DNA of 62,191 bases, taken from the NCBI GenBank assembly GCA_031257875.1, contig JAIRNV010000137.1, positions 1 through 62,191 on the forward strand, written 5' to 3'. The DNA is from Dysgonamonadaceae bacterium (GTDB lineage Bacteria > Bacteroidota > Bacteroidia > Bacteroidales > Azobacteroidaceae). How positions within the stretch are numbered: the stretch's first letter is position 1; the number at the start of each line of letters is the position of its first letter. A program made the position numbers and the translations under genes. Shown one piece after another: positions 4,874 to 46,991 of the stretch. The notes below the pieces were generated by a model, which was not told where the DNA came from, searched no databases, and worked only from the letters and a program-made list of their open reading frames with translations.

Positions 4874-5923
4874 TTACGCCAAATGAGAAATTTTATTTAT
4901 AATTTGCTCAATAACTTTCGCCGGTGCAACAAACTTATTATAATAATCTTTTGCATTTTTTTCCAAGCGGAATAAAAGTTCATCGTCATTCAATAAAATA
5001 TTGATAGCAGTATCCATATCTTCTATATCATCGATCAGGTATATATGCCGGCCGTGAATCAATGGTTCCGATAATTCATTAGCCAAAGGTGTCGAAATTA
5101 TAGCTTTGCCCATACACAAAAATTCCCCCAATTTCCATCCGTGACAATTAAGTACTGCCGGCGTATTGAAAACAAAGCGAGATTTTTTGATTTTTTCTGT
5201 ATACACCGAATTTGGAATAAATTTGTAAAATAGTAGTTTTGGTGGAATATCGTCGGGACACGGAACTCCTTTATTGATAAAAAAGCCGCCTTCGTAATCA
5301 ATTTTCGGATTATTATAACATGAAAGAATATAATGCTTTCTAAAAATATTGGTTTTCATTTTCATACCCTCGTGCCAAAAAGTAGATGCAAAGAAAACAT
5401 AATTATCCGTATGATTATTTACCTGTTCATAGTATTCCAACTTTTGACGTTTCAATAATGACAGATAATTGCGAATCCATCTCACAGGTTGAAGATGAAT
5501 ATTCCTGTCCTTGCTGCGTTTAATTATACCGGCTTTTACAAAATTGCCGAACAAATTACATATTAATTCGTAAGGGTTCCATAATTTTATTGCAAACGAT
5601 GGCGGAATACATACTAATTTATCGGGAACATTGTCCGGTAACGTATTTTTGTTTACATTGATTTTTGCATAAATATCCGCCCAAAGCCAGGCATTGCTTA
5701 TCACATCACTTTGGTCGCGGTAGTCAATGATGATTTTTTTTGTTATATCGCGTTCTACCACAACAAAAGCCATAAGCATATCAATTTCCGTCAGGGTCTT
5801 AAAATATTTTTCAGAAAAACGGACATTCTTTTTTCCGAAAACATCATATAAGCCCTTGATATAAAAAGACGAATAATTAATCGTACTGCGCGGATCTATA
5901 AAAACTTTCGCATTTTTTCGCAT
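4874..5923 (-). CDS. Glycosyltransferase-like protein
   Basis: C-term CHGWKLGEFLCMGKAIISTPLANELSEPLIHGRHIYLIDD, GT-B-like; located in EPS cluster. Confidence 0.6.
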   Translation of the reverse strand: MRKNAKVFIDPRSTINYSSFYIKGLYDVFGKKNVRFSEKYFKTLTEIDMLMAFVVVERDITKKIIIDYRDQSDVISNAWLWADIYAKINVNKNTLPDNVPDKLVCIPPSFAIKLWNPYELICNLFGNFVKAGIIKRSKDRNIHLQPVRWIRNYLSLLKRQKLEYYEQVNNHTDNYVFFASTFWHEGMKMKTNIFRKHYILSCYNNPKIDYEGGFFINKGVPCPDDIPPKLLFYKFIPNSVYTEKIKKSRFVFNTPAVLNCHGWKLGEFLCMGKAIISTPLANELSEPLIHGRHIYLIDDIEDMDTAINILLNDDELLFRLEKNAKDYYNKFVAPAKVIEQIINKISHLA

Positions 5924-5978
5924 ATTCTTTAATATTTAGTAATATTTATAAACAATGTAAATATTGCATGGACAATTT

Positions 5979-6932
5979 TCATGGAGTGGCAACAAATTTA
6001 TTTTTCAAGTAAGAATATGCAAAAGTAGCATTTCTAAACCAGAATCCCAAATGTAAGCTGTTTAAGAGTCGAATAAGGGATGGAAAATGGATATGCCATT
6101 CGCGGGCTTTTTCTTTCAAGCGCTTATTGTCGTCATATTTTTCCAATGCCAAACCAAAAAGGAAAATCCGTTTTACCAATTTGGACAAAGCATATCCGGC
6201 ATGTAAACGAATATAATCTTCGTGAAACAGGGATAAAGTTTCATTCAGAGAAATATATTGCCGTTCCAGTGCGGCCTTGTTGTTCAAATGATATTCGCGG
6301 GTAACGGAATCGGCGCGTCCTCGTTCGCGATTTACAATAGCTTCTTTGACAAAAAACTGCTTCCCCCCCGCTTTATATATCTGTAAAAAAGTCAAACCTT
6401 CGTAGGTTCGCAAATATTCGTCGAAAGGAAACTGTTTGAGTAAAAGGCCATCCATTACATGTGCAAAATCGCCGCTTACCTTGCCGGTTAAAAAATCTCC
6501 GAAAGTCAGAATGGCAGTCGGTGTATGCAGAAGCGGATTTTGACTGTAATAAGTCATGCGGTCGTTTTGGGCAAACAGATAATGAAAATATCCGGGATTT
6601 GCGAGGATATTTTGATTGATTGTTTGAAGCGCGTCCTTAACAAAGTAGTCGTCACTGTCCAGAAAAATGATAAAGTTCTTTGTACTGTTCTTTATCGCGT
6701 AATTACGTGCAGCATTGACTCCGCGGTTTTTGTCAAACCGGTGGAAACGGATAAACGGATACCGGAGCGCCTGTTGTTCTATAATCATAGCGGTATTGTC
6801 GGTCGAACCATCATCAATAATCCGGTGTTCTATGTTTTCATAACCTTGTCCGGCTACACTTTCGATGCAGCGTTGAATACAATCCTGCCGGTTATAAACA
6901 GGAGTTATTATGGAAAAACTGTTATTTGTCAT
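5979..6932 (-). CDS. Glycosyltransferase family 2
   Basis: ORF 5979..7115; real start likely MTNNSFSIITPVYNRQDCIQRCIESV at 6932; DDGSTDNT and DSDD motifs. Confidence 0.9.
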   Translation of the reverse strand: MTNNSFSIITPVYNRQDCIQRCIESVAGQGYENIEHRIIDDGSTDNTAMIIEQQALRYPFIRFHRFDKNRGVNAARNYAIKNSTKNFIIFLDSDDYFVKDALQTINQNILANPGYFHYLFAQNDRMTYYSQNPLLHTPTAILTFGDFLTGKVSGDFAHVMDGLLLKQFPFDEYLRTYEGLTFLQIYKAGGKQFFVKEAIVNRERGRADSVTREYHLNNKAALERQYISLNETLSLFHEDYIRLHAGYALSKLVKRIFLFGLALEKYDDNKRLKEKAREWHIHFPSLIRLLNSLHLGFWFRNATFAYSYLKNKFVATP

Positions 6933-7845
6933 AATATACGATTTTTTTTGCTGTTTGCCTGCATAACCAATAAAAAGATCTAAAACAGGCACAAATGAAA
7001 CCTGTCGCTTTATATAATTTGCCGAAAGGAGCCTGTTCCGTAAAATCGCACCATTTATTGAAAAACAACATTTTATTTTGTCTGTATCGTCTTTTTGCCT
7101 GTCGCAATAATGCAAGATTCAAATGCTGGTAGACGCCATATCGCAAATAAACGATATTTCTTTCCATATCCGATAAACCATTAGCGCTTAATTTGTGCGG
7201 CTGATCTTCCAAATAAATGCCCAAGGGTTCATCCGTTTTCACAAAAAGATAATGAAGCGCGGCGCGTATTTGAAAATCAAAATCGGCCACGCATTTGAAC
7301 TGTTCATCGTAGTACCCGATTGTTTCATGTATGGATTTCCGCCACATTTGGAAACAGGAAATATGATACTGTTTGAAAAAATCTTTATTACAGTTGTTCT
7401 CAGGGCTGTTTGTGCAAAAACCGTTACACTCTCCATAATTGGATGATACCCAAATGTCACCGTATGCAATAGCGGCTTCAGGATTTTTGTCCATCGCCTC
7501 GGTTTGCTGCAAAATACTGTTGGGAAAACGCACATCATCCACATTCCAGACCGTTATGTATTCGCCTTGCGCTAAACGGATGCCGCGATTCCAGGTACTG
7601 TATAAACCTTCGCGTTCGGGGATGATGATATGACGGACAAACGGCGCTTTCGGCAACCGGCGAATAATGATTTCCGTTTCGTTTTCCTGCGGATCGTTAT
7701 GCAATAACAATACCTCTATCTTATCCGTTCCGTTAATTTCCGAAAGATATTTGAAATAACTTTCCAAAAATTGCTCACAACGATAAAGCGACGTCAATAC
7801 CGATATTTTCACATGATTATTCATTCCAAAATCCGTTAATCCCAT
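6922..7845 (-). CDS. Glycosyltransferase family 2
   Basis: VKISVLTSLYRCEQFLESYF; WNRGIRLAQGEYITVWNVDD. Confidence 0.9.
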   Translation of the reverse strand: MGLTDFGMNNHVKISVLTSLYRCEQFLESYFKYLSEINGTDKIEVLLLHNDPQENETEIIIRRLPKAPFVRHIIIPEREGLYSTWNRGIRLAQGEYITVWNVDDVRFPNSILQQTEAMDKNPEAAIAYGDIWVSSNYGECNGFCTNSPENNCNKDFFKQYHISCFQMWRKSIHETIGYYDEQFKCVADFDFQIRAALHYLFVKTDEPLGIYLEDQPHKLSANGLSDMERNIVYLRYGVYQHLNLALLRQAKRRYRQNKMLFFNKWCDFTEQAPFGKLYKATGFICACFRSFYWLCRQTAKKIVYYDK

Positions 7846-7851
7846 ACCGAG

Positions 7852-8157
7852 TTATTTTATTTCTATTCCATCTTTTTCGACATTCTTATAAAATGGGGTA
7901 AAACTGCGTTTTTCCCACTCCGCTTCATTGTAAGTTTTTATACTTAAATAAGTTTCATAATTCCACCCCATCAAGACAAATTGAAAAATCCGGTCTTCCA
8001 AATCTTTTTCATCCTTTTTATCGGTAAGCAGCAGCAAATCCCAGTCCGAATCGGGACGGGCGTCGCCCCGCGCCTGCGAACCAAACAGGATTAAACGCTC
8101 TTCGGGAATCAATTCGCGCTTAAGCTGACGGATATTTTCGAAAATTTGCCTGTTCAT
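7852..8157 (-). CDS. MNT-type nucleotidyltransferase
   Basis: LFGSQARGDARPDSDWDLLLL (GSx10DxD). Confidence 0.9.
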   Translation of the reverse strand: MNRQIFENIRQLKRELIPEERLILFGSQARGDARPDSDWDLLLLTDKKDEKDLEDRIFQFVLMGWNYETYLSIKTYNEAEWEKRSFTPFYKNVEKDGIEIK

Positions 8158-8204
8158 AAATATTTATTGTTTTCGTGTATTGCTGTCCCTTCTTTTACAA
8201 AAAA

Positions 8205-8510
8205 TTAAATGCGAAAACCGTATTTTTTAATTTGACGTATAACAGGAGTATCGGTTAAAAAATCATTTTCACAATAGGTGTGGGTTTCAATCATGGTTTC
8301 CTCCCCCTTTCGAATAACCATCAATCGAACGTCAGTATCAAATGACATTTGATTATCCGGTAAAATTAATGCTATATCTATGTCGCTGTTTTCGTTATAA
8401 TTATCTTTGGCATAAGAGCCGAAAAGCCATGCATCCAAAACATTAATACCGTTTTGTTTCACTTTTTCCAAATAATTTTTACTCAGTATTACAGCATCTT
8501 TTTTATCCAT
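8205..8510 (-). CDS. MNT-type nucleotidyltransferase
   Basis: LFGSYAKDNYNENSDIDIALIL; probable start MDKKDAVILSKN at 8510, the rest of the ORF upstream is GT2-derived sequence. Confidence 0.85.
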   Translation of the reverse strand: MDKKDAVILSKNYLEKVKQNGINVLDAWLFGSYAKDNYNENSDIDIALILPDNQMSFDTDVRLMVIRKGEETMIETHTYCENDFLTDTPVIRQIKKYGFRI

Positions 8511-8594
8511 AATCGAATTTTTAATCCATTCGCGGCGCAAATATACATGAATTTTATCAATTACACACAGACGAATAAAGATGTCTTGCAAAGC

Positions 8595-8630
8595 TATGAC
8601 TAATACTGATATTTTCACATGACTATTCAT
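8595..8630 (-). pseudogene. 5'-end remnant of a GT2 gene (MNSHVKISVLVIA)
   Basis: About 33 bp near-identical to the start region of the GT2 at 7845 (MNNHVKISVL); start codon overlaps the Wzy stop. Confidence 0.75.
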
Positions 8631-9949
8631 TCCAAAACAGGTTCTTCCGTTTTTTTAATTACACAATAAGTAATTAACGGCAACACAAATGTTATCGGCG
8701 TGATAAGGTTGGGTGAAAAAAATGATGTTCCAAACGACATAACAAGAAAAAGAAATGATGAAAGGGCGTATCTGTTTTTCCTTTTTTTATAAAAAAATAC
8801 CGTCAGGTAGATAAACAACAACAAATTCAAAAAAGTTCCCAAATAACCGTATCGCAGCAACAAAACGGAATGAGAAATATCTCCGGTATCCAATTGTTGG
8901 GTCTGTCCCGACAATTCTTCTGCCAAACCGATATCGAAATCAAACAGGGAATAAGTCAGTTTGGAATCTTCCGTCATCAATCCCGCTCCGGTTAGCATAG
9001 TTACCGGATTATCCAAAAGATACTGATTGCGCTCCAAAAGATGCATTATCCGGAATGTAAATGTGGAAGCATGCAATTCGTCCATATCAATTTCCGCATC
9101 AACAACATTTCCGGAAACAACACGCTGGATATCAATATAGGTACGGGAGTGAACAAACTTATATCCGGCAAAGACGATAAAAAACACTGAAAATACGGAA
9201 ATAACAGTTAAAATTTTTATCCTTCGTAAACGGGGAAGTTGAAGAATATATCCCAATATTACGGCGACAATGAACGAACCTATCAAACTGCGGTGGAATG
9301 CTGCAAGCAAGGCAATAACAAGTATAGCAGTCGTTGCATATTTCGCCATTCCTTTCAATGGATTGTAATAAATTGCCATAAACGCAAAGAAATGAAGCAT
9401 ATCCGGCTGGTTGTAATATCGCGGTATTTTTATACCAAACAAGTTCACAGAACTTTTTGCACCTGTATTAAGAATTGATTCGTTCAAAAATATCTGAAGA
9501 AGGTACAATACCGAACAAATAACCGTTACAAGGAACAAATATTTCAATAAACGTTCCATTTGCTCTTTCGGCAGATTACGGAAAACGGGGTAGACAACCC
9601 ATAAAAAGTGATAGCGGCAAGTTCGAATAATTTCAGTCCAACCAACGCCGATTGCAAATTTATTATAAAAAATACATGCAACCAGAAATGCACAAAACAG
9701 AAGGTATAAACAAATCAAACGGTCGAATTTCAAATAACCTTTTATGCAAAAAGCGTCAATCACCACAACCGTAAAAAGTATGATTATCGCATAATCCATA
9801 CCTTTGGAAAAGAACACTGATTCGGTTATTTTTTCGGGAATAAGGTTAAAACCGGATGTTAAAAACAAGAAAAAGAAAATGAGCGCCGGAACTTTATAAT
9901 CCCACACATACAACCCGATAACTATTATGACAATAAACAAAAAAATCAT
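8627..9949 (-). CDS. O-antigen polymerase/ligase-like membrane protein (Wzy-like)
   Basis: Multi-TM 440 aa, AAFHRSLIGSFIVAVILGY, position in EPS cluster. Confidence 0.75.
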   Translation of the reverse strand: MIFLFIVIIVIGLYVWDYKVPALIFFFLFLTSGFNLIPEKITESVFFSKGMDYAIIILFTVVVIDAFCIKGYLKFDRLICLYLLFCAFLVACIFYNKFAIGVGWTEIIRTCRYHFLWVVYPVFRNLPKEQMERLLKYLFLVTVICSVLYLLQIFLNESILNTGAKSSVNLFGIKIPRYYNQPDMLHFFAFMAIYYNPLKGMAKYATTAILVIALLAAFHRSLIGSFIVAVILGYILQLPRLRRIKILTVISVFSVFFIVFAGYKFVHSRTYIDIQRVVSGNVVDAEIDMDELHASTFTFRIMHLLERNQYLLDNPVTMLTGAGLMTEDSKLTYSLFDFDIGLAEELSGQTQQLDTGDISHSVLLLRYGYLGTFLNLLLFIYLTVFFYKKRKNRYALSSFLFLVMSFGTSFFSPNLITPITFVLPLITYCVIKKTEEPVLE

Positions 9950-39784: not shown

Positions 39785-40768
39785 ATGGTTTTTGCAAATC
39801 CTGCCTGTTTATGGCTCCTGCTTTTACTTCTCCCGATGATTGGATGGTACATTTGGAAATTGCGCAAATCGCAAGCCTCTATCCAACTGTCATCTTTGGA
39901 AGGATTTGAAAAAGCGCCGAACACTTTCCGGATTTATTTGCGCCGTCTTCCGTTCATATTCCGGATGCATGCGCTTGCTTTTCTGATTGTTGCCATGGCG
40001 CGTCCGCAAACAACCGACCGGTGGAATACGGAAACAACCGAAGGCATCGACATCATGATGAGCCTCGATATTTCGTCCTCCATGCTGGCGCAGGACTTGA
40101 AGCCCGACCGCTTGAAAGCCGCCAAAGACGTAGCCGCATCATTCGTCAACGGTCGTAGAAACGACAATATCGGTCTGGTGGTTTTCTCCGCCGAAAGTTT
40201 TACCCAGTGCCCACTGACTACCGACCACGCGGTTTTGTTGAATCTCCTGAAAGACGTAAACTGCGGAATGATCGAAGACGGAACGGCTATCGGACACGGC
40301 CTGGCGACCGCAGTCAGCCGTCTGAAAGACAGCAAAGCGAAATCAAAAGTGATTATCCTGCTGACCGACGGCACCAACAATCGCGGGGAAATTGCTCCCG
40401 TCACAGCCGCTCAAATTGCTCAAGCCTACGGAATCAGGGTTTACACGATTGCCGTGGGAACGGTTGGCGAAGCGCCCTATCCTGTGCAGACAGCGCTCGG
40501 CGTGCGGACACAAATGGTGAAAGTGGAAATTGACGAAAAAACGTTGACGCAAATTGCTCAAATTACCGGCGGCCGCTATTTCAGGGCAACGAACAATAAA
40601 GCCCTGGTCGAAATTTACAAGGAAATTGACCGGATGGAAAAAACAAAAATGAGTGTGCAGGAATACAGCAAAAAGCAGGAAGAATACGGCCGTTATGCAA
40701 TGTGGGCGATGATTTTCTTCCTGCTGGAAATCCTGTTGAGGTATACGATATTAAAAAATATTCCATAA
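39785..40768 (+). CDS. batA: VWA-domain aerotolerance protein BatA
   Basis: MMSLDISSSMLAQDLKPDRLKAAKDVA; VIILLTDGTNNRGEIAP. Confidence 0.92.
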   Translation: MVFANPACLWLLLLLLPMIGWYIWKLRKSQASIQLSSLEGFEKAPNTFRIYLRRLPFIFRMHALAFLIVAMARPQTTDRWNTETTEGIDIMMSLDISSSMLAQDLKPDRLKAAKDVAASFVNGRRNDNIGLVVFSAESFTQCPLTTDHAVLLNLLKDVNCGMIEDGTAIGHGLATAVSRLKDSKAKSKVIILLTDGTNNRGEIAPVTAAQIAQAYGIRVYTIAVGTVGEAPYPVQTALGVRTQMVKVEIDEKTLTQIAQITGGRYFRATNNKALVEIYKEIDRMEKTKMSVQEYSKKQEEYGRYAMWAMIFFLLEILLRYTILKNIP

Positions 40769-40837
40769 ATTCAGATGTATTTCAAATTGTCACAGTCGTT
40801 ACTGGATCGCAGTCGTCATTGCGAACTGCGTAGCAGT

Positions 40838-40879
40838 GAAGCAATCCAGAATAGGCATAATCCATGTCTGGATTGCTTC
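40838..40879. repeat. Palindromic interspersed repeat (gaagcaatccaga...tctggattgcttc), preceded by GTCATTGCGAACTGCG
   Basis: 13-bp arms 40838-40850 / 40867-40879. Confidence 0.85.
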
Positions 40880-40977
40880 CCCTTGTTGCGACAAGGTTCT
40901 TACCTTGTTGCAACTATCCCGACAGGTTCAACCTGTCAGAATAGACGGCGCGAGGCACAGCCTCGCACCAACCTGGG
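40880..40977 (+). repeat. 98-bp repeat R, copy 1
   Basis: Nearly identical to 42462-42559; contains gacaggttcaacctgtc and gcgaggcacagcctcgc palindromes. Confidence 0.95.
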
Positions 40978-41009
40978 GGAAGATTCATATGAAGGAACTG
41001 ACAACCTTT

Positions 41010-41182
41010 TTTTAAGTCCATACGTAGCGATGTTCCGCGAATTAAGAACATTAGGATGTACTTTCACGAATATGGAAAAATCGTTATGTACGTATTCGAT
41101 TCCTAGCTTTAGGGATAATCTTATTGCCAAGCACCCTGGTTTGATCACACAAATAACTAACGTAATATCCAGCAGGTTATGA
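41010..41182 (+). pseudogene. Detached C-terminal tail of the metalloprotease-like lipoprotein (cassette 1)
   Basis: RTLGCTFTNMEKSLCTYSIPSFRDNLIAKHPGLITQITNVISS vs VTLGCSFVNIEKSLCAYSIGAFRNNLTGKYPNRQQRITEIIQ. Confidence 0.8.
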
Positions 41183-41706
41183 AACGGAATTTAATCATAC
41201 CTTGCGCTTTTTTATTGTTATCACTTGCTTGTACTCGCACTGAAAAGTGGTCAATGGAGTTGCATAAAGTTGTCATTAACTCAACCGATAAAGCCTTGTA
41301 CTGCGAAGTCATAACAGATGAAGGTAGCAAGAACGCATTTGTCAATGCATACGATAGCATTGACATGAAATTTTACAGAGAGCATGATGTAGAGTTGGGG
41401 TTACTGGAATCGGCATTGACCTCCACTGTCAGACAAGATAGAATTATTGTGAAAGAGGAAACCATATTTAATATTGTCGATACAAGCAAATATAAATATG
41501 CTCTTGAGTATGAAGCTATTCCACAACAAGGAAATACAGAAAAAGAAAAAATTTTTGCACGGCATCTTGTAAAAGAACTTGGAGAGGGTTCAACAGACAA
41601 AAATGCAATAATTATCATCAAGTTAAATGTGACAGATTCTATTTTGCAAATTATGCAGAAAGACTACGGCATGTTGGATAAATTCAAAGAGTATTACAGC
41701 AATTAG
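41179..41706 (+). CDS. Small lipoprotein, cassette 1
   Basis: Lipobox LLSLACT; C-term MQKDYGMLDKFKEYY shared with siblings; ATGA overlap with tail. Confidence 0.8.
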   Translation: MKRNLIIPCAFLLLSLACTRTEKWSMELHKVVINSTDKALYCEVITDEGSKNAFVNAYDSIDMKFYREHDVELGLLESALTSTVRQDRIIVKEETIFNIVDTSKYKYALEYEAIPQQGNTEKEKIFARHLVKELGEGSTDKNAIIIIKLNVTDSILQIMQKDYGMLDKFKEYYSN

Positions 41707-41761
41707 TAGCAATAAAAAATACAGCGGTGGCACTTGCCCTCTGCTGTATTTTATCACCCTG

Positions 41762-41890
41762 GTGCAGTTGTCAAAACATGGGAAAAAATCGCTTTGTACG
41801 TATAGTGTTACAGGTTTTAGAGACAATCTGGTTGGCAAATACCCAGGCAGAAGAGACAGAATAATTGAAATAATTAGTAGATATGAATAG
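41762..41890 (+). pseudogene. Detached metalloprotease tail (cassette 2)
   Basis: KKSLCTYSVTGFRDNLVGKYPGRRDRIIEIISRYE*, read from sequence. Confidence 0.8.
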
Positions 41891-42386
41891 GTACTTATAT
41901 TTTTTATGTATCATTCTTTGTTTCATAAGATGCAATCCTGAGGTGGATACTTCTTTTGAATACACAAAGTCGCTGGTAAACAAAACCGACAAAGTACTTT
42001 TTTATGCAGTCAGGACTACTGCCGGCAGTGACAGTGCTTTTTCGTATGGTCATGACAGTATTGAATTTTATTTTGTACATCGCAGCAAGGTTTCTTTACC
42101 TCCTGTAGGTCCATATCACATAGACATTGAAGGTGTAAGTATGCGTGAAGAAAGGTTATATAATCTGACCGATACTTCTTTTTTCCGATTCAATTTAAAC
42201 AGGAACACATGGAACGGGAAAGATTCCATATATTGGGATAATATTACATATAGTGTACTTGACGGTACAAATGCAGGCATGCATGAAAGACATTTTGAAA
42301 CATTGACATTTCAGGATATTTTATTCACTGTCATGCAAAAGGATTACGGTATGTTGGATAAATTTCGTGAGTACTATGATAGATAA
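41883..42386 (+). CDS. Small lipoprotein, cassette 2
   Basis: CFIRCNPEVD lipobox-like; MQKDYGMLDKFREYY C-term; overlaps tail by 8 nt. Confidence 0.8.
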   Translation: MNRYLYFLCIILCFIRCNPEVDTSFEYTKSLVNKTDKVLFYAVRTTAGSDSAFSYGHDSIEFYFVHRSKVSLPPVGPYHIDIEGVSMREERLYNLTDTSFFRFNLNRNTWNGKDSIYWDNITYSVLDGTNAGMHERHFETLTFQDILFTVMQKDYGMLDKFREYYDR

Positions 42387-42464
42387 TAATAGCAATATAA
42401 CTATAAAAGAATAATATAAACTGTTTCTTAAATTTCAATATGTATGTTTAGATTTGAACATCCC
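42229..42464 (+). repeat. Direct repeat, copy 1 (lipoprotein 3' end through batB 5' end)
   Basis: Near-identical to 45299-45530, with a 4-nt deletion in copy 2. Confidence 0.95.
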
Positions 42465-42869
42465 TTGTTGCGACAAGGTTCTTACCTTGTTGCAACTATC
42501 CCGACAGGTTCAACCGGTCAGAATAGACGGCGCGAGGCACAGCCTCGCACCAACCTGGGAACGGTTGGCGAAGCGCCCTATCCTGTGCAGACAGCGCTCG
42601 GCGTGCGGACGCAAATGGTGAAAGTGGAAATTGACGAAAAAACGTTGACGCAAATTGCTCAAATTACCGGCGGCCGCTATTTCAGGGCAACGAACAATAA
42701 AGCCCTGGTCGAAATTTACAAGGAAATCGACCAAATGGAAAAAACAAAAATGAGTGTGCAGGAATACAGCAAAAAGCAGGAAGAATACGGCCGTTATGCA
42801 ATGTGGGCGATGATTTTCTTCCTGCTGGAAATTCTGTTGAGGTATACGATATTAAAAAATATTCCATAG
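42444..42869 (+). pseudogene. Chimeric ORF: batB start + repeat R + in-frame batA C-terminus
   Basis: MFRFEHP (BatB) then R then TVGEAPYPVQTALGVRTQMVKVE...LKNIP (BatA). Confidence 0.9.
42462..42559 (+). repeat. 98-bp repeat R, copy 2
   Basis: See 40880-40977. Confidence 0.95.
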
Positions 42870-42878
42870 TATTTTAGA

Positions 42879-44777
42879 GTGATGAAAAAAATTTTATTCT
42901 TTTTCGTGAGTATGATCTTTATAGCTTGCGAACGGGAAAGCGTTCCACAAACAGATGTAATTGATGAAACTGCCGGTGGTAGTGATCTTTCCTTTAGTAT
43001 AGAGAACAGGGAAGTACGTCCGGTTATACTGGGTAAACAGAAAAACAACCCGTATTCGGTAGAAAACATGCTATTAGCGCTGGATACACTGCGTGCATAC
43101 GCAAATGCAGTCGGTGACGAAGAACTGCAATCAAATGCAGGCATACGGGCAGGGACTTTAGAAACACTGTCTATCAATACCACTGATTTGTATGTACGTT
43201 TTCTACCGCAGGACAGCATCGGATATGCGGCATTGAAAAGTGATTCCACTTTGGAGTTGTTTAATTATCCACTTGATTATGAGATTGTACAGGCAGGAGA
43301 TTATTATTATGATCCGACTGTTGGCGACAATGTCTACACGTGGCTGTATGCCGTAGTAAAACCCTGTTATCAGCCTCCGCAGGGAGTGGTTTATGAAGTG
43401 CCGGAAGAACTTTTTATCATTGAAAACAGCGAAGGTTATACTGAAGAAACAATTTCGGAAGAAGAGGTACAAATAAAATCAAATAAAAACAGTCCAAAAG
43501 CTGTTATTGATGATAATTTACGGAAAGCGCTTGTTGCCACTTCTTTTGTTCTTACCGGTAATGGCGGAGAATTACGGACAGACTGTCCCGTTTCAACGGA
43601 TACTCTACAGTTCAGAAGAACGGTAACGAGTTGTAGCAGGAAATGTATTTTGTGGGGACGGGTATGTTGGACAACCTGCGATTACAAATATTATCCCGAA
43701 GGTTATATAAGAGTAAACACCCCGTCCGGCGACGTTGGGCTGAAAGGAGTGAAAGTACGTACCACCCGATGGTTTCATACTATCACGATGCGAACCAATT
43801 CCAGCGGTTATTATCAGTCTCCGAACGATTATTATGATGATATTTTGATACTGAACACTCCCCATTATGAAATTATTTTTGACGGTGCTAACGGCGGTAA
43901 TTCATGGACATTGAGCAAGGCTTTATTCGGGGCGATTTGTCTGTGGACAAATTCATACGGTGCGGGATACCACAGTCCTAACGGTCACTCCATGACTTTC
44001 TACACCAATAGCGACTACTGGGGAAAAGCCGTGCTGAATAATGCCGTTTATGACTATATAGACTACGCAACAACAGACGGGATTAGTTTGCCTCCGTCAA
44101 GTTTGGATATTGCCAATAAACAGTCGAGTGATTTAACTTCATCGGCTCCACTTTTGAAGAATCATATTGACTGGGCTTTAATTTATGCCTCCCCTTTTTG
44201 GGGTACCGTAGCAACCGTGGTAGGATACTCTCTGTTCGGATGGAGTTTTCCGGATTTGATACTTCGATACAATAAAACCCTGAGCGATTATAACAAAATC
44301 ACAGCAACTTGCTGGCACGAACTGACCCATGCCAGCCAGTTGCGGCGCATGAAGAGCGAAAAAGGTTTCCTTTGGGCATCCGACTATTGGAGTCATGTGG
44401 TGTTGCAGGAAGCGTCAAATTATGAAAAAACAGGCGGTTCTTATGGCAATAAAGGCGATACTAACTGGCAGATTATTGCCTTAGCCGAAGGGTGGGCAAA
44501 TTATAGAGAGTGGGATTTGGCAAGAAGATATTTGAACTATAATATATATGGGGAAAATTCAGAAACCCATGTCCCATATTATTTCGATGACTATTCAACT
44601 TCTATTGCTATCTTTTATGGTGGGATGTTTGATAGATTAGTAACGTTAGGATGTTCTTTTGTCAATATAGAAAAATCACTGTGTGCATACAGTATTGGAG
44701 CTTTTCGGAATAACCTTACAGGCAAATATCCAAACCGGCAACAACGTATAACAGAAATAATTCAGCCTTATGAATAG
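42879..44777 (+). CDS. Zinc-metalloprotease-like lipoprotein (HExxH...E)
   Basis: Lipobox SMIFIACE; CWHELTHASQLRRMKS; downstream ALAEGWANYREW as possible third ligand. Confidence 0.75.
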   Translation: MMKKILFFFVSMIFIACERESVPQTDVIDETAGGSDLSFSIENREVRPVILGKQKNNPYSVENMLLALDTLRAYANAVGDEELQSNAGIRAGTLETLSINTTDLYVRFLPQDSIGYAALKSDSTLELFNYPLDYEIVQAGDYYYDPTVGDNVYTWLYAVVKPCYQPPQGVVYEVPEELFIIENSEGYTEETISEEEVQIKSNKNSPKAVIDDNLRKALVATSFVLTGNGGELRTDCPVSTDTLQFRRTVTSCSRKCILWGRVCWTTCDYKYYPEGYIRVNTPSGDVGLKGVKVRTTRWFHTITMRTNSSGYYQSPNDYYDDILILNTPHYEIIFDGANGGNSWTLSKALFGAICLWTNSYGAGYHSPNGHSMTFYTNSDYWGKAVLNNAVYDYIDYATTDGISLPPSSLDIANKQSSDLTSSAPLLKNHIDWALIYASPFWGTVATVVGYSLFGWSFPDLILRYNKTLSDYNKITATCWHELTHASQLRRMKSEKGFLWASDYWSHVVLQEASNYEKTGGSYGNKGDTNWQIIALAEGWANYREWDLARRYLNYNIYGENSETHVPYYFDDYSTSIAIFYGGMFDRLVTLGCSFVNIEKSLCAYSIGAFRNNLTGKYPNRQQRITEIIQPYE

Positions 44778-45276
44778 AATATTTTGCACATTGTTAATCT
44801 TGTTGTTTTCAGCATGTGTACACGAACAGGAGAAAATTGTCAGTTCGGAAACAGTTTTTGAAGTAGAAAACTATTCTGCAAAAGATATTATTTATGCTGT
44901 CAAGACGGAGATTGGGAACGATACTCTTTACCTCAAACCTCAAGACATCAAAAAAATGTCTTTTCGAAAAGAAAAAAAACAAGTCGTTGAAACATATCCT
45001 GCAGGTGAGACTCTCTTTGATTTGGTGGAATTTGTCAAATCTTATGAGCAAATGATATGTAGTTTGACCGATACTGCAAGATATATTCGTATCAGTGGAT
45101 TAGGAGCATCAGAACAAGATACCATATTTGATGCGAGTCGGCATGAATCTCTTGAAGGTGATGTTTTTAACAGGGTTGTCAGAGTTGTAATTGAAGTTAC
45201 AGACTCTTTGCTGACTATAGCAGAAAAGGATTACATCATGCTGAAAGAGTTCAAAGAGTACTATGCAAACGAATAA
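44770..45276 (+). CDS. Small lipoprotein, cassette 3
   Basis: Lipobox LLFSACV; EKDYIMLKEFKEYY C-term; overlaps protease stop by 8 nt. Confidence 0.8.
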   Translation: MNRIFCTLLILLFSACVHEQEKIVSSETVFEVENYSAKDIIYAVKTEIGNDTLYLKPQDIKKMSFRKEKKQVVETYPAGETLFDLVEFVKSYEQMICSLTDTARYIRISGLGASEQDTIFDASRHESLEGDVFNRVVRVVIEVTDSLLTIAEKDYIMLKEFKEYYANE

Positions 45277-45298
45277 CAATAAAACTGTACATCACCCC

Positions 45299-45530
45299 TA
45301 TATTGGGATAATATTACATATAGTGTACTTGACGGTACAAATGCATGCATGAAAGACATTTTGAAACATTGACATTTCAGGATATTTTATTCACTGTCAT
45401 GCAAAAGGATTACGGTATGCTGGATAAATTTCGTGAGTACTATGATAGATAATAATAGCAATATAACTATAAAAGAATAATATAAACTGTTTCTTAAATT
45501 TCAATATGTATGTTTAGATTTGAACATCCC
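45299..45530 (+). repeat. Direct repeat, copy 2 (frameshifted lipoprotein remnant through batB start)
   Basis: See 42229-42464. Confidence 0.95.
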
Positions 45531-46529
45531 GAATATCTGTATTTGCTGGTATTATTGCCCGCTTTTTTGTTTCTCTTCCTGTACTCCATGTACATCAAAA
45601 AAAGGAATCTGAAAAGACTTGGCAACATGAAGATTCTTCGCGGATTAATGCCCGATGTAGCCTTGAAAAAGCAACATCTGAAATTTTGGCTGTCGTTTGT
45701 CTGCCTGGGCTTATTCATAGTGATCATTGCAGGTCCGCAATTCGGCTCAAAACTGGAAACCGTCAAACGGCAAGGCATCGAAGCAATGATTTGTTTGGAC
45801 GTATCCAATTCCATGCTATCCAACGATATCAATCCAAGCCGTCTGGAAAAGTCCAAACAGATTTTATCCAGATTGATCGACGATTTACGCGATGATAAAA
45901 TCGGCCTGATTGTCTTTGCCGGCGATGCTTTTATCCAGTTGCCCGTTACTTCGGATTATGTTTCGGCAAAAATGTTTTTGTCTTCCATCAATCCGTCTAT
46001 GGTTCCGACGCAGGGAACGGCTATCGGAGCCGCCATCAATTTGGCAATCAGTTCTTTTTCTCCTTCGGAAAAATCGGAAAAAACGATTATCCTGATTACC
46101 GACGGGGAAAACCACGAAGACGACGCCCTGGGCGCCGCTAAAGCCGCAAACGAAAAAGGAATCAAAATCAACGTCCTGGGCGTAGGATCGCTTCAGGGAG
46201 GCCCCATCCCTACGCCAGGCAACAATTATCAAAAGGATAAAGACGGGACGATGGTTATTACCCGGCTGAATGAACAAATGTGTCAAGAGATTGCAACAAC
46301 CGGCAATGGTATGTATGCAAGAACCGACAACACAAACAGCGCGCTGAAAGCCCTGCAAAAGGAACTGGCCAAATTGACCAAATCGGAAGTGGAAAGTAAA
46401 ATTTATTCTTCTTATGATGAAAAATACCTGATTCCCGCCTGGTTTTTGCTGTTTCTTTTAATCGGGGAATTTTTTATTTTAGATAGAAAAAACAGGGTTT
46501 TAAGTAAAATCAAACTTTTTAAAATCTGA
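45510..46529 (+). CDS. batB: VWA-domain aerotolerance protein BatB
   Basis: MFRFEHPEYLYLLVLLPAFLFL; MICLDVSNSMLSNDINPSRLEKSKQ. Confidence 0.92.
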   Translation: MFRFEHPEYLYLLVLLPAFLFLFLYSMYIKKRNLKRLGNMKILRGLMPDVALKKQHLKFWLSFVCLGLFIVIIAGPQFGSKLETVKRQGIEAMICLDVSNSMLSNDINPSRLEKSKQILSRLIDDLRDDKIGLIVFAGDAFIQLPVTSDYVSAKMFLSSINPSMVPTQGTAIGAAINLAISSFSPSEKSEKTIILITDGENHEDDALGAAKAANEKGIKINVLGVGSLQGGPIPTPGNNYQKDKDGTMVITRLNEQMCQEIATTGNGMYARTDNTNSALKALQKELAKLTKSEVESKIYSSYDEKYLIPAWFLLFLLIGEFFILDRKNRVLSKIKLFKI

Positions 46530-46544
46530 TAATGCGAAATTTTC

Positions 46545-46991
46545 ATGGATAAAAATCCCATACAGGAAGCAAACCGTTATCTTGCGAATGCAAGACAAAT
46601 CTTATCGGAAAAAGCCAAAAAGGATGGCGACTTTTACGGCGATCGGAAGTATGTTAAAATAGCCGGTCACACGGCATGGTGCGGCGTATTAATAGCTCTT
46701 GACGCGGTATTGAACGTCCGCAGAAACTTAAAAAAGAATCAGCGTCCTGATTTTAATGATTATTTGTCGGCGGTTTCCAGGATAGATTCAAAAACGTCCC
46801 GCCTTTTACTGGCGGCTTATGAAACGCTTCATAAATCTCTTGGGTATGACGGTAATCCTGATTACAAAATAGTTCAACGCAGTCTTGATCAGGCTCGACT
46901 GTTAATTGACTGGGCTTCTCAACATGAGCAGCCAGCCGCTCCGGCGTCTTCGCGCAAAAGTCCGTTTTTAAGTATCTTAAAGTTTTGGTAA
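46545..46991 (+). CDS. DUF5618-like helical protein (paralogue)
   Basis: MDKNPIQEANRYLANARQILSEKAKKDGDFYGDRKYVKIAGHTAWCGVLIALDAVL. Confidence 0.7.
   Translation: MDKNPIQEANRYLANARQILSEKAKKDGDFYGDRKYVKIAGHTAWCGVLIALDAVLNVRRNLKKNQRPDFNDYLSAVSRIDSKTSRLLLAAYETLHKSLGYDGNPDYKIVQRSLDQARLLIDWASQHEQPAAPASSRKSPFLSILKFW

Follow-up and report, generated by a model that had tools for sequence, protein, structure and literature searches.

A recurrent gene module pairing a lipoprotein metalloprotease with small lipoproteins in Bacteroidota, arrayed between batA and batB in a Dysgonamonadaceae bacterium

Passages of the literature on Tannerella describe potempins, small lipoproteins that are coexpressed with secreted proteases of this genus and inhibit them specifically (PMC4404884, PMC7296668). 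For the orphan cdiA-CT/cdiI modules of contact-dependent growth inhibition (CDI) systems, a tandem-duplication route for module shuffling has been suggested (PMC3150448). Here, we describe a locus with likenesses to both, situated in 62,191 nucleotides of DNA from a Dysgonamonadaceae bacterium (assembly GCA_031257875.1, contig JAIRNV010000137.1, positions 1 to 62,191 of the forward strand); this whole stretch is referred to as the window. Between batA and batB, the window carries an intact lipoprotein metalloprotease gene, three intact small lipoprotein (LP) genes, designated LP1, LP2 and LP3, and two detached 3′ ends of protease genes, which we call tails. As in the potempin-KLIKK pairs of Tannerella forsythia, which likewise belong to the Bacteroidota, a secreted protease stands beside a small lipoprotein and there is little similarity between pairs (PMC4404884, PMC7296668). 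As in the orphan cdiA-CT/cdiI modules, start-less C-terminal fragments, each with its own small partner gene downstream, lie beside one intact system (PMC3150448). The arrangement is a real, recurrent and unnamed gene module of a gut bacterium of the Bacteroidales and of other Bacteroidota, and both the protease-LP pairing and its modular exchange are well supported.

Protease, lipoproteins and tails of the window

A first-pass annotation of the window had reported an intact HExxH lipoprotein gene overlapping a small lipoprotein gene and, upstream, two cassettes in which only the end of a protease gene overlaps an LP gene. Both the intact pair and the two cassettes were recovered at these positions:

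40982..41182, + strand: detached protease tail 1, comprising the final ~63 codons and the stop (tblastn, alignment)
41179..41706, + strand: LP1, 175 aa, 4-nt overlap with tail 1 (reading frame)
41715..41755, + strand: terminator-like strong hairpin followed by a T-run, 3′ of LP1 (folding: -21 kcal/mol, z -3)
41783..41890, + strand: detached protease tail 2, comprising the final 35 codons and the stop (tblastn, alignment)
41883..42386, + strand: LP2, 167 aa, 8-nt overlap with tail 2 (reading frame)
42879..44777, + strand: intact lipoprotein metalloprotease, 632 aa (reading frame, alignment, structure model)
44770..45276, + strand: LP3, 168 aa, partner of the intact protease, which it overlaps by 8 nt (reading frame, model)

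The ATG at 42882 is a likelier start codon of the protease than 42879. Its lipobox reads IFIA|C, and a lipobox is likewise present in LP1, LP2 and LP3. The zinc motif HELTH occupies residues 480-484. Across an alignment of 18 protease sequences H480, E481, H484, E537 and W539 are invariant, such that the combination of HExxH and a distal Glu expected of a gluzincin-like zincin is present, with E537 as the putative third zinc ligand. A conserved N-terminal domain (~48-185) precedes a weakly supported transthyretin-like domain (~252-333); 3′ of the catalytic part, a variable region (541-600) is followed by the conserved last ~30 aa. Proteases of this type end in IIQPYE, NNGF, QHYGY and the like, and none of them has a KLIKK end.

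Both tails were recovered by tblastn with the protease C-terminus, far beyond chance (E=6e-15 and 5e-12, 48-63% identity). The homologous part of tail 1 (~40982-41179, stop at 41182) is 51% identical to the intact protease over 59 aa, and that of tail 2 (41783-41887, stop at 41890) is 63% identical over 35 aa. Tail 2 contains no in-frame ATG, and tail 1 is open solely within a longer frame running through repeats. The tails found at the various loci (~15-88 aa) lie after the HExxH domain and carry no catalytic residues.

Sequence searches of Pfam, NCBIfam, PADLOC and PDB with the protease and the LPs returned nothing significant, in line with the earlier statement that the family could not be named. 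An NCBIfam match to Riean_0653 (E=5e-5) was set aside, being below the curated cut-off and limited to the N-terminus. LP3 was modelled as a beta-sandwich with a C-terminal helix (pLDDT 69), the helix being formed by the most conserved stretch of the LP family, KDYxMLxxFxEYY; the protease model is weaker (pLDDT 62). Foldseek comparison of these two models of modest confidence with PDB gave no match at E<=0.001. Matches to VHL and transthyretin-like folds had low TM-scores and no fold claim is based on them. The models hint at folds that are mostly beta plus a C-terminal helix, with a possible transthyretin-like middle domain in the protease.

Pairing, distribution and exchange of the module

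Searches covered some 1,000 genomes or more, at levels from genus up to phylum, plus named contigs; a profile search of genome contigs with alignment A2 yielded 11 loci. A same-strand small lipoprotein gene lies directly 3′ of the protease gene in 27 of the 29 loci for which downstream DNA was available, across Bacteroidota. These LPs usually measure 130-190 aa (one has ~220 aa), and their genes start ~-60 to +150 nt from the protease. Under a uniform rule, none of 140 other long open reading frames (ORFs) in the same loci has such a neighbour; three listed control matches were proteases themselves, missed by the filter, and were not counted. The protease-LP pairing is thus well supported as a conserved rule and is not local debris. 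At the only two exceptions, loci L060 and L059 (genomes G055 and G413), the gene next to the protease encodes an outer-membrane beta-barrel-like protein of ~185 aa.

Distribution of the protease across Bacteroidota is patchy. It was found in 2/48 genomes of the family, 29/395 of the order (a count that includes weak N-terminal matches), 3/396 of the class (at a stricter cut-off) and 3/399 of the phylum (with the Chryseobacterium protein described below as query). Its site varies as well, being after a trpF-like gene in one genome (G023), between aspS-like and TerC-like genes in another (G161) and between batA and batB in the window. A profile of window-type LPs matched three of the 395 genomes of the order, all three with a window-type protease, and detected no scattered orphan LPs in protease-less genomes of this set. 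A fourth match was weak (E=2.5e-5), fell within a 463-aa frame and was taken to be false. Neither viral contigs nor phage records contained relatives.

Comparison of related loci shows where the exchanged unit begins. Relative to locus L068, identity of the window protease is mostly 66-88% over residues 91-540, falls to 40-46% over residues 541-600 and rises again in the last 30 residues; over residues 541-600, identity to the protease of G161 is 36-40%. This region, the least conserved stretch of the protease among close relatives, adjoins the LP gene. Because protease identity drops here and the LP cores are almost unrelated (17-26%), the exchange unit begins 3′ of the catalytic domain.

Diversification of the LPs by recombination, as proposed in the first-pass annotation, is borne out by tandem LPs at three loci (G161, L071 and G124). 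Their ends hardly differ, synonymous positions included, whereas the cores are unrelated or have diverged strongly (near saturation); in G161, the last 60/60 nt of LP2 and LP3 are identical and their cores share 24% aa identity. For shared amino acids, the same codon is used at 109/116 positions in the ends vs 161/287 in the cores (Fisher p=3e-15, a value that is indicative only, since LP pairs pooled from three loci are not independent). Recombination through the ends is the straightforward explanation of homogenised ends flanking unrelated cores. The window's own LPs show no such homogenised ends. Positive selection on the LPs has no overall support, one core segment of G124 reaching a dN/dS of ~1.

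Two to three tandem or clustered LPs occur at seven loci, namely the window, G161, L071, G124, L075, L076 and a Chryseobacterium plasmid, and most arrays consist of LPs only, without tails. The counterpart of window LP2 in G161 is the third LP (48% core identity), other pairs among window-type LPs sharing about 17-31%. In both loci the LP2 type is the last LP of the array, which would fit the addition of new modules on the protease side, as far as two loci can indicate. In L048, the G161 locus, a similar hairpin (CTCTC...GAGAG) follows each LP, so that the repeated unit includes an LP and a terminator-like element. In L076 (7484-9625), a fumarate-reductase-like iron-sulfur gene lies between two extra LPs and the protease-LP pair; array members can hence be separated by housekeeping genes.

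Tails next to LPs recur on a complete, mobilizable plasmid of the fish-derived isolate Chryseobacterium sp. SNU WT7 (NZ_CP044508.1, locus L120). Near tra genes, a protease gene (5001-6965) is followed by LP1 (6955-7485), a detached 72-aa tail (92% identical) that overlaps LP2 (7751-8278), and a second tail of 88 aa (85%) preceding the start of a third LP, with units ~800 nt apart. The third LP start (MATKFLKMFFAVLV) is broken off after the second tail, and a fourth tail fragment follows (8636-8698, 71%; the region spans 8570-8700). The same tail-LP layout on a complete plasmid indicates that the layout of the window is no one-off. The orphan-module architecture that had been suggested for the window therefore recurs, but the parallel with classical polymorphic toxins fails at one point: the swapped tail carries no catalytic domain. 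A further tail remnant of ~15 residues directly follows the LP of genome G959; a like search of 22 other loci found no detached tails.

Substitution patterns bear on the origin of the tails. On the plasmid, dN/dS is 0.10 and 0.10 for the two tails against the resident protease and 0.17 for tail against tail. In the window, tails and protease differ by dN 0.33-0.57 and dS 1.6-2.1 (pN 0.27-0.40, pS 0.66-0.70). As neutral decay in place would give a ratio of ~1 and dN is well below dS, the tails are 3′ ends of other protease alleles that diverged within working proteases and were then cut down. Their descent from recent, decayed copies of the resident protease was rejected on the basis of dN/dS and of their divergence (37-49% in the window). 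Decayed tails without conserved pairing, named in the first-pass annotation as an outcome contrary to its proposal, are thus not what was found, the 27/29 pairing pointing the same way.

History of the batA-batB interval

The junction between batA and batB, earlier described as normally compact, indeed measures 2-125 nt in other members of the genus in which both genes share one contig, and 12 nt in the closest relative (95% batA). The sole exception in the genus, locus L083 of genome G030, has an unrelated 598-nt insert, whose ORF resembles a small gene 3′ of batB in the window (46545-46991). In the window, the following elements complete the interval:

39785..40768, + strand: batA, host gene, left flank of the insertion (reading frame)
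40810..40879, + strand: 70-nt stretch with an inverted pair of GGATTGCTTC, directly left of the 98-nt repeat (read from sequence; single copy in the window)
40880..40977, + strand: 98-nt interspersed palindromic repeat, copy 1, abutting tail 1 (sequence comparison)
42441..42464, + strand: truncated duplicate of the batB 5′ end, ATGTTTAGATTTGAACATCCC (sequence comparison)
42462..42559, + strand: 98-nt repeat, copy 2, at the junction of the duplication, where batB 5′ sequence meets batA 3′ sequence (sequence comparison)
42556..42869, + strand: duplicate of the batA 3′ end, 308/314 nt identical (98%) (sequence comparison)
45296..45451, + strand: frameshifted 3′ remnant of LP2, duplicate copy (sequence comparison)
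45510..46529, + strand: batB, host gene, right flank (reading frame)

The interval is a tandem duplication running from the batA 3′ end to the batB 5′ end, as it contains a second copy of each of these ends, with the 98-nt repeat at the junction. Positions 42277-42464, which span the 3′ end of LP2, a spacer and the opening 21 nt of batB, are repeated at 45343-45530 (187/188 nt, 99%). The lipoprotein 3′ remnant downstream of LP3, which the first-pass annotation counted as a fourth lipoprotein, is frameshifted as had been noted and carries a small deletion relative to the LP2 3′ end; it is, however, the duplicated end of LP2, the tandem duplication having been overlooked. The simplest ancestor would be batA - protease - LP3 - tail1 - LP1 - tail2 - LP2 - batB, that is, one protease with three LPs. 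After duplication, the left copy would have lost the protease and LP3, and the right copy tail1, LP1, tail2 and the 5′ part of LP2.

The palindromic 98-nt element (CCCTTGTTGCGACAAGG...GCGAGGCACAGCCTCGC...CACCAAC) is present in more than 20 copies in the source genome. One copy (L007) is apparently flanked by a short direct repeat, GACCTC, which suggests transposition of the element. The duplication also created a chimeric in-frame ORF of 141 aa (42444-42869), in which the batA C-terminus follows the batB start and the 98-nt repeat.

Unequal crossover between repeats might have doubled the interval and left degenerate pieces behind, with no meaning to the tails. The 98-99% tandem duplication, the interspersed repeat at its junction and the one frameshifted LP remnant fit such plain duplication and decay, which truly is part of the history of the interval. 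As a full account it is very improbable, given the divergence of the tails from the resident protease, their dN well below dS, the intact state of LP1 and LP2 and the same layout on an unrelated Chryseobacterium plasmid.

The window assembly, with 234 contigs and 84.7% completeness, cannot prove the exact order of duplication. Its fragmentation and the copy number of the 98-nt repeat would also suit a chimera formed during assembly, with that repeat as the bridge between batA-batB haplotypes from two strains; in their 98-99% identity, the duplicated flanks resemble strain alleles. Such a chimera could explain the duplication, but neither the tail-LP overlaps, each contained in a single segment, nor the complete plasmid. 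Moreover, the junctions of batB 5′ sequence with the repeat and of the repeat with batA 3′ sequence have just 3-4 nt of common sequence. We consider a chimera improbable.

Proposed function and comparison with known systems

Surface export of Bacteroidota lipoproteins is signalled by a stretch of K-(D/E)2-like or S-D-D type that follows the lipidated Cys (PMC5080379). Scored in relaxed form (C-X-K-(D/E) or SDD type, a rule taken from other Bacteroidota), this signal is present in 16/22 proteases vs 1/30 LPs (p=1e-7). Such a split fits a surface protease and a periplasm-side LP, the topology expected of a self-protection factor. It speaks against the LPs being exported co-factors, substrate adaptors or variable surface antigens, with a docking C-terminus in common with the protease and a remainder that varies to change what is bound. 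This explanation accommodates the common C-terminal ends and differing cores of LPs within one array, as well as the conservation of the protease body between close relatives (66%), far above that of the LP cores (~17-25%). The ends are homogenised at synonymous sites, though, which recombination alone can explain, and we give the co-factor explanation a low probability.

We lean, with slightly better than even confidence, towards an accessory, recombining protease/partner system, in which the LPs would be periplasm-side inhibitors or immunity proteins and the exchanged unit the protease 3′ end plus the LP. Inhibition of the protease by the LP is likely; the protease C-terminus may act as the docking site for the LP, cognate specificity is presumed, and a use against neighbours beyond self-protection is conceivable. 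The lipoprotein zinc metalloprotease would go to the outer surface or to outer-membrane vesicles. The LP encoded by the overlapping gene, facing the periplasm, would bind and restrain the protease during envelope passage and guard against sibling enzymes. The specificity contact would be formed by the protease C-terminal segment and the LP, hence the exchange of the two as one module. Incoming allelic modules would displace older ones, leaving old LPs downstream, with or without a stub of the former protease, where they would keep protecting against their allelic protease forms.

Several findings weigh against this partner-system reading. The window protease (CERESV) has no strict export motif, and the signal rule was derived from other Bacteroidota. 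Two loci of one genus (G055 and G413) have no LP after the protease. The mismatch between protease (66%) and LP identity (about 17-25%) among close relatives is large if each LP were simply the inhibitor of one protease. In Chryseobacterium and L075, LP pairs are under overall purifying selection (dN/dS 0.2-0.3), and detached tails occur at three loci only (the window, the Chryseobacterium plasmid and the G959 remnant).

A more modest role would be potempin-like self-protection alone, each LP inhibiting its own secreted protease in the periplasm and the extra LPs and tails being remains of replaced genes that play no part in competition. The precedent of the potempins, as far as the cited passages describe them (PMC7296668, PMC4404884), is in its favour, as are the expected direction of the difference in export signals and the mostly short tails without start codons. 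Extra LPs are nonetheless intact at seven loci, the LP2 type is kept at the distal end of the array in each of two families, and the homogenised ends and unrelated cores of the LPs suggest active exchange; self-protection as the whole role is, in our estimate, unlikely. At the other extreme, the recombining partner system may be an undescribed, horizontally moving, polymorphic antagonism system of Bacteroidota. The weapon would be a surface or vesicle lipoprotein metalloprotease with a constant catalytic engine and a swappable C-terminal lock fitted by its cognate LP key, and arrays of orphan keys would provide immunity to neighbours' alleles. We advance this as a tentative and, on present grounds, doubtful possibility.

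The analysis brings to light an unnamed protease/lipoprotein family pair with conserved gene order in Bacteroidota and an exchange module that excludes the catalytic domain, seen on a complete isolate plasmid. Should the LPs prove to be inhibitors, their arrays would amount to natural collections of protease inhibitors, each matched to a target, and a simple system of two proteins would allow tests of module swapping and cross-immunity. Were they immunity factors, they would mark lipoprotein proteases as weapons between Bacteroidota.

Differences from the closest described systems are as follows. Potempin genes precede the protease gene, while window-type LP genes follow it, usually overlapping; the C-terminal domain common to KLIKK proteases ends in KLIKK, while window-type proteases are lipoproteins without such an end; and the literature passages on potempins describe no arrays with tails (PMC4404884, PMC7296668). 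CDI (and Rhs) fragments contain the toxin domain, whereas the tails described here lie after the HExxH domain and lack catalytic residues (PMC3150448); the window system also has neither a CdiB/CdiA filament nor a VENN motif, and many arrays are LP-only. In SitA/SitI of myxobacteria (PMC5562445), as here, the effector is itself a lipoprotein with a downstream partner (immunity) gene, and polymorphic families occur on repeated units. SitA C-terminal toxin domains, however, act in the cytoplasm and SitI1 belongs to the SUKH family (PMC5562445), whereas the present module combines a protease effector with a lipoprotein partner; no sequence relationship turned up between the two systems, for which no direct comparison was made. 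Tox-MPTase of polymorphic toxin systems (PMC3482391) likewise combines an HExxH zinc peptidase with a downstream partner, but the module described here has a lipoprotein signal only and no RHS, filamentous haemagglutinin, PVC or other trafficking domain. With classical polymorphic toxins, it shares a partner gene immediately downstream (27/29) and orphan modules of C-terminal fragment plus partner. It departs from them in that the N-terminal and catalytic regions are conserved, the exchanged part (541-632) comes after the catalytic domain and no trafficking domain is found in Pfam or NCBIfam. The system works like potempins, orphan CDI modules and SitA, but potempins and classical polymorphic toxins each have one or more defining features that it lacks.

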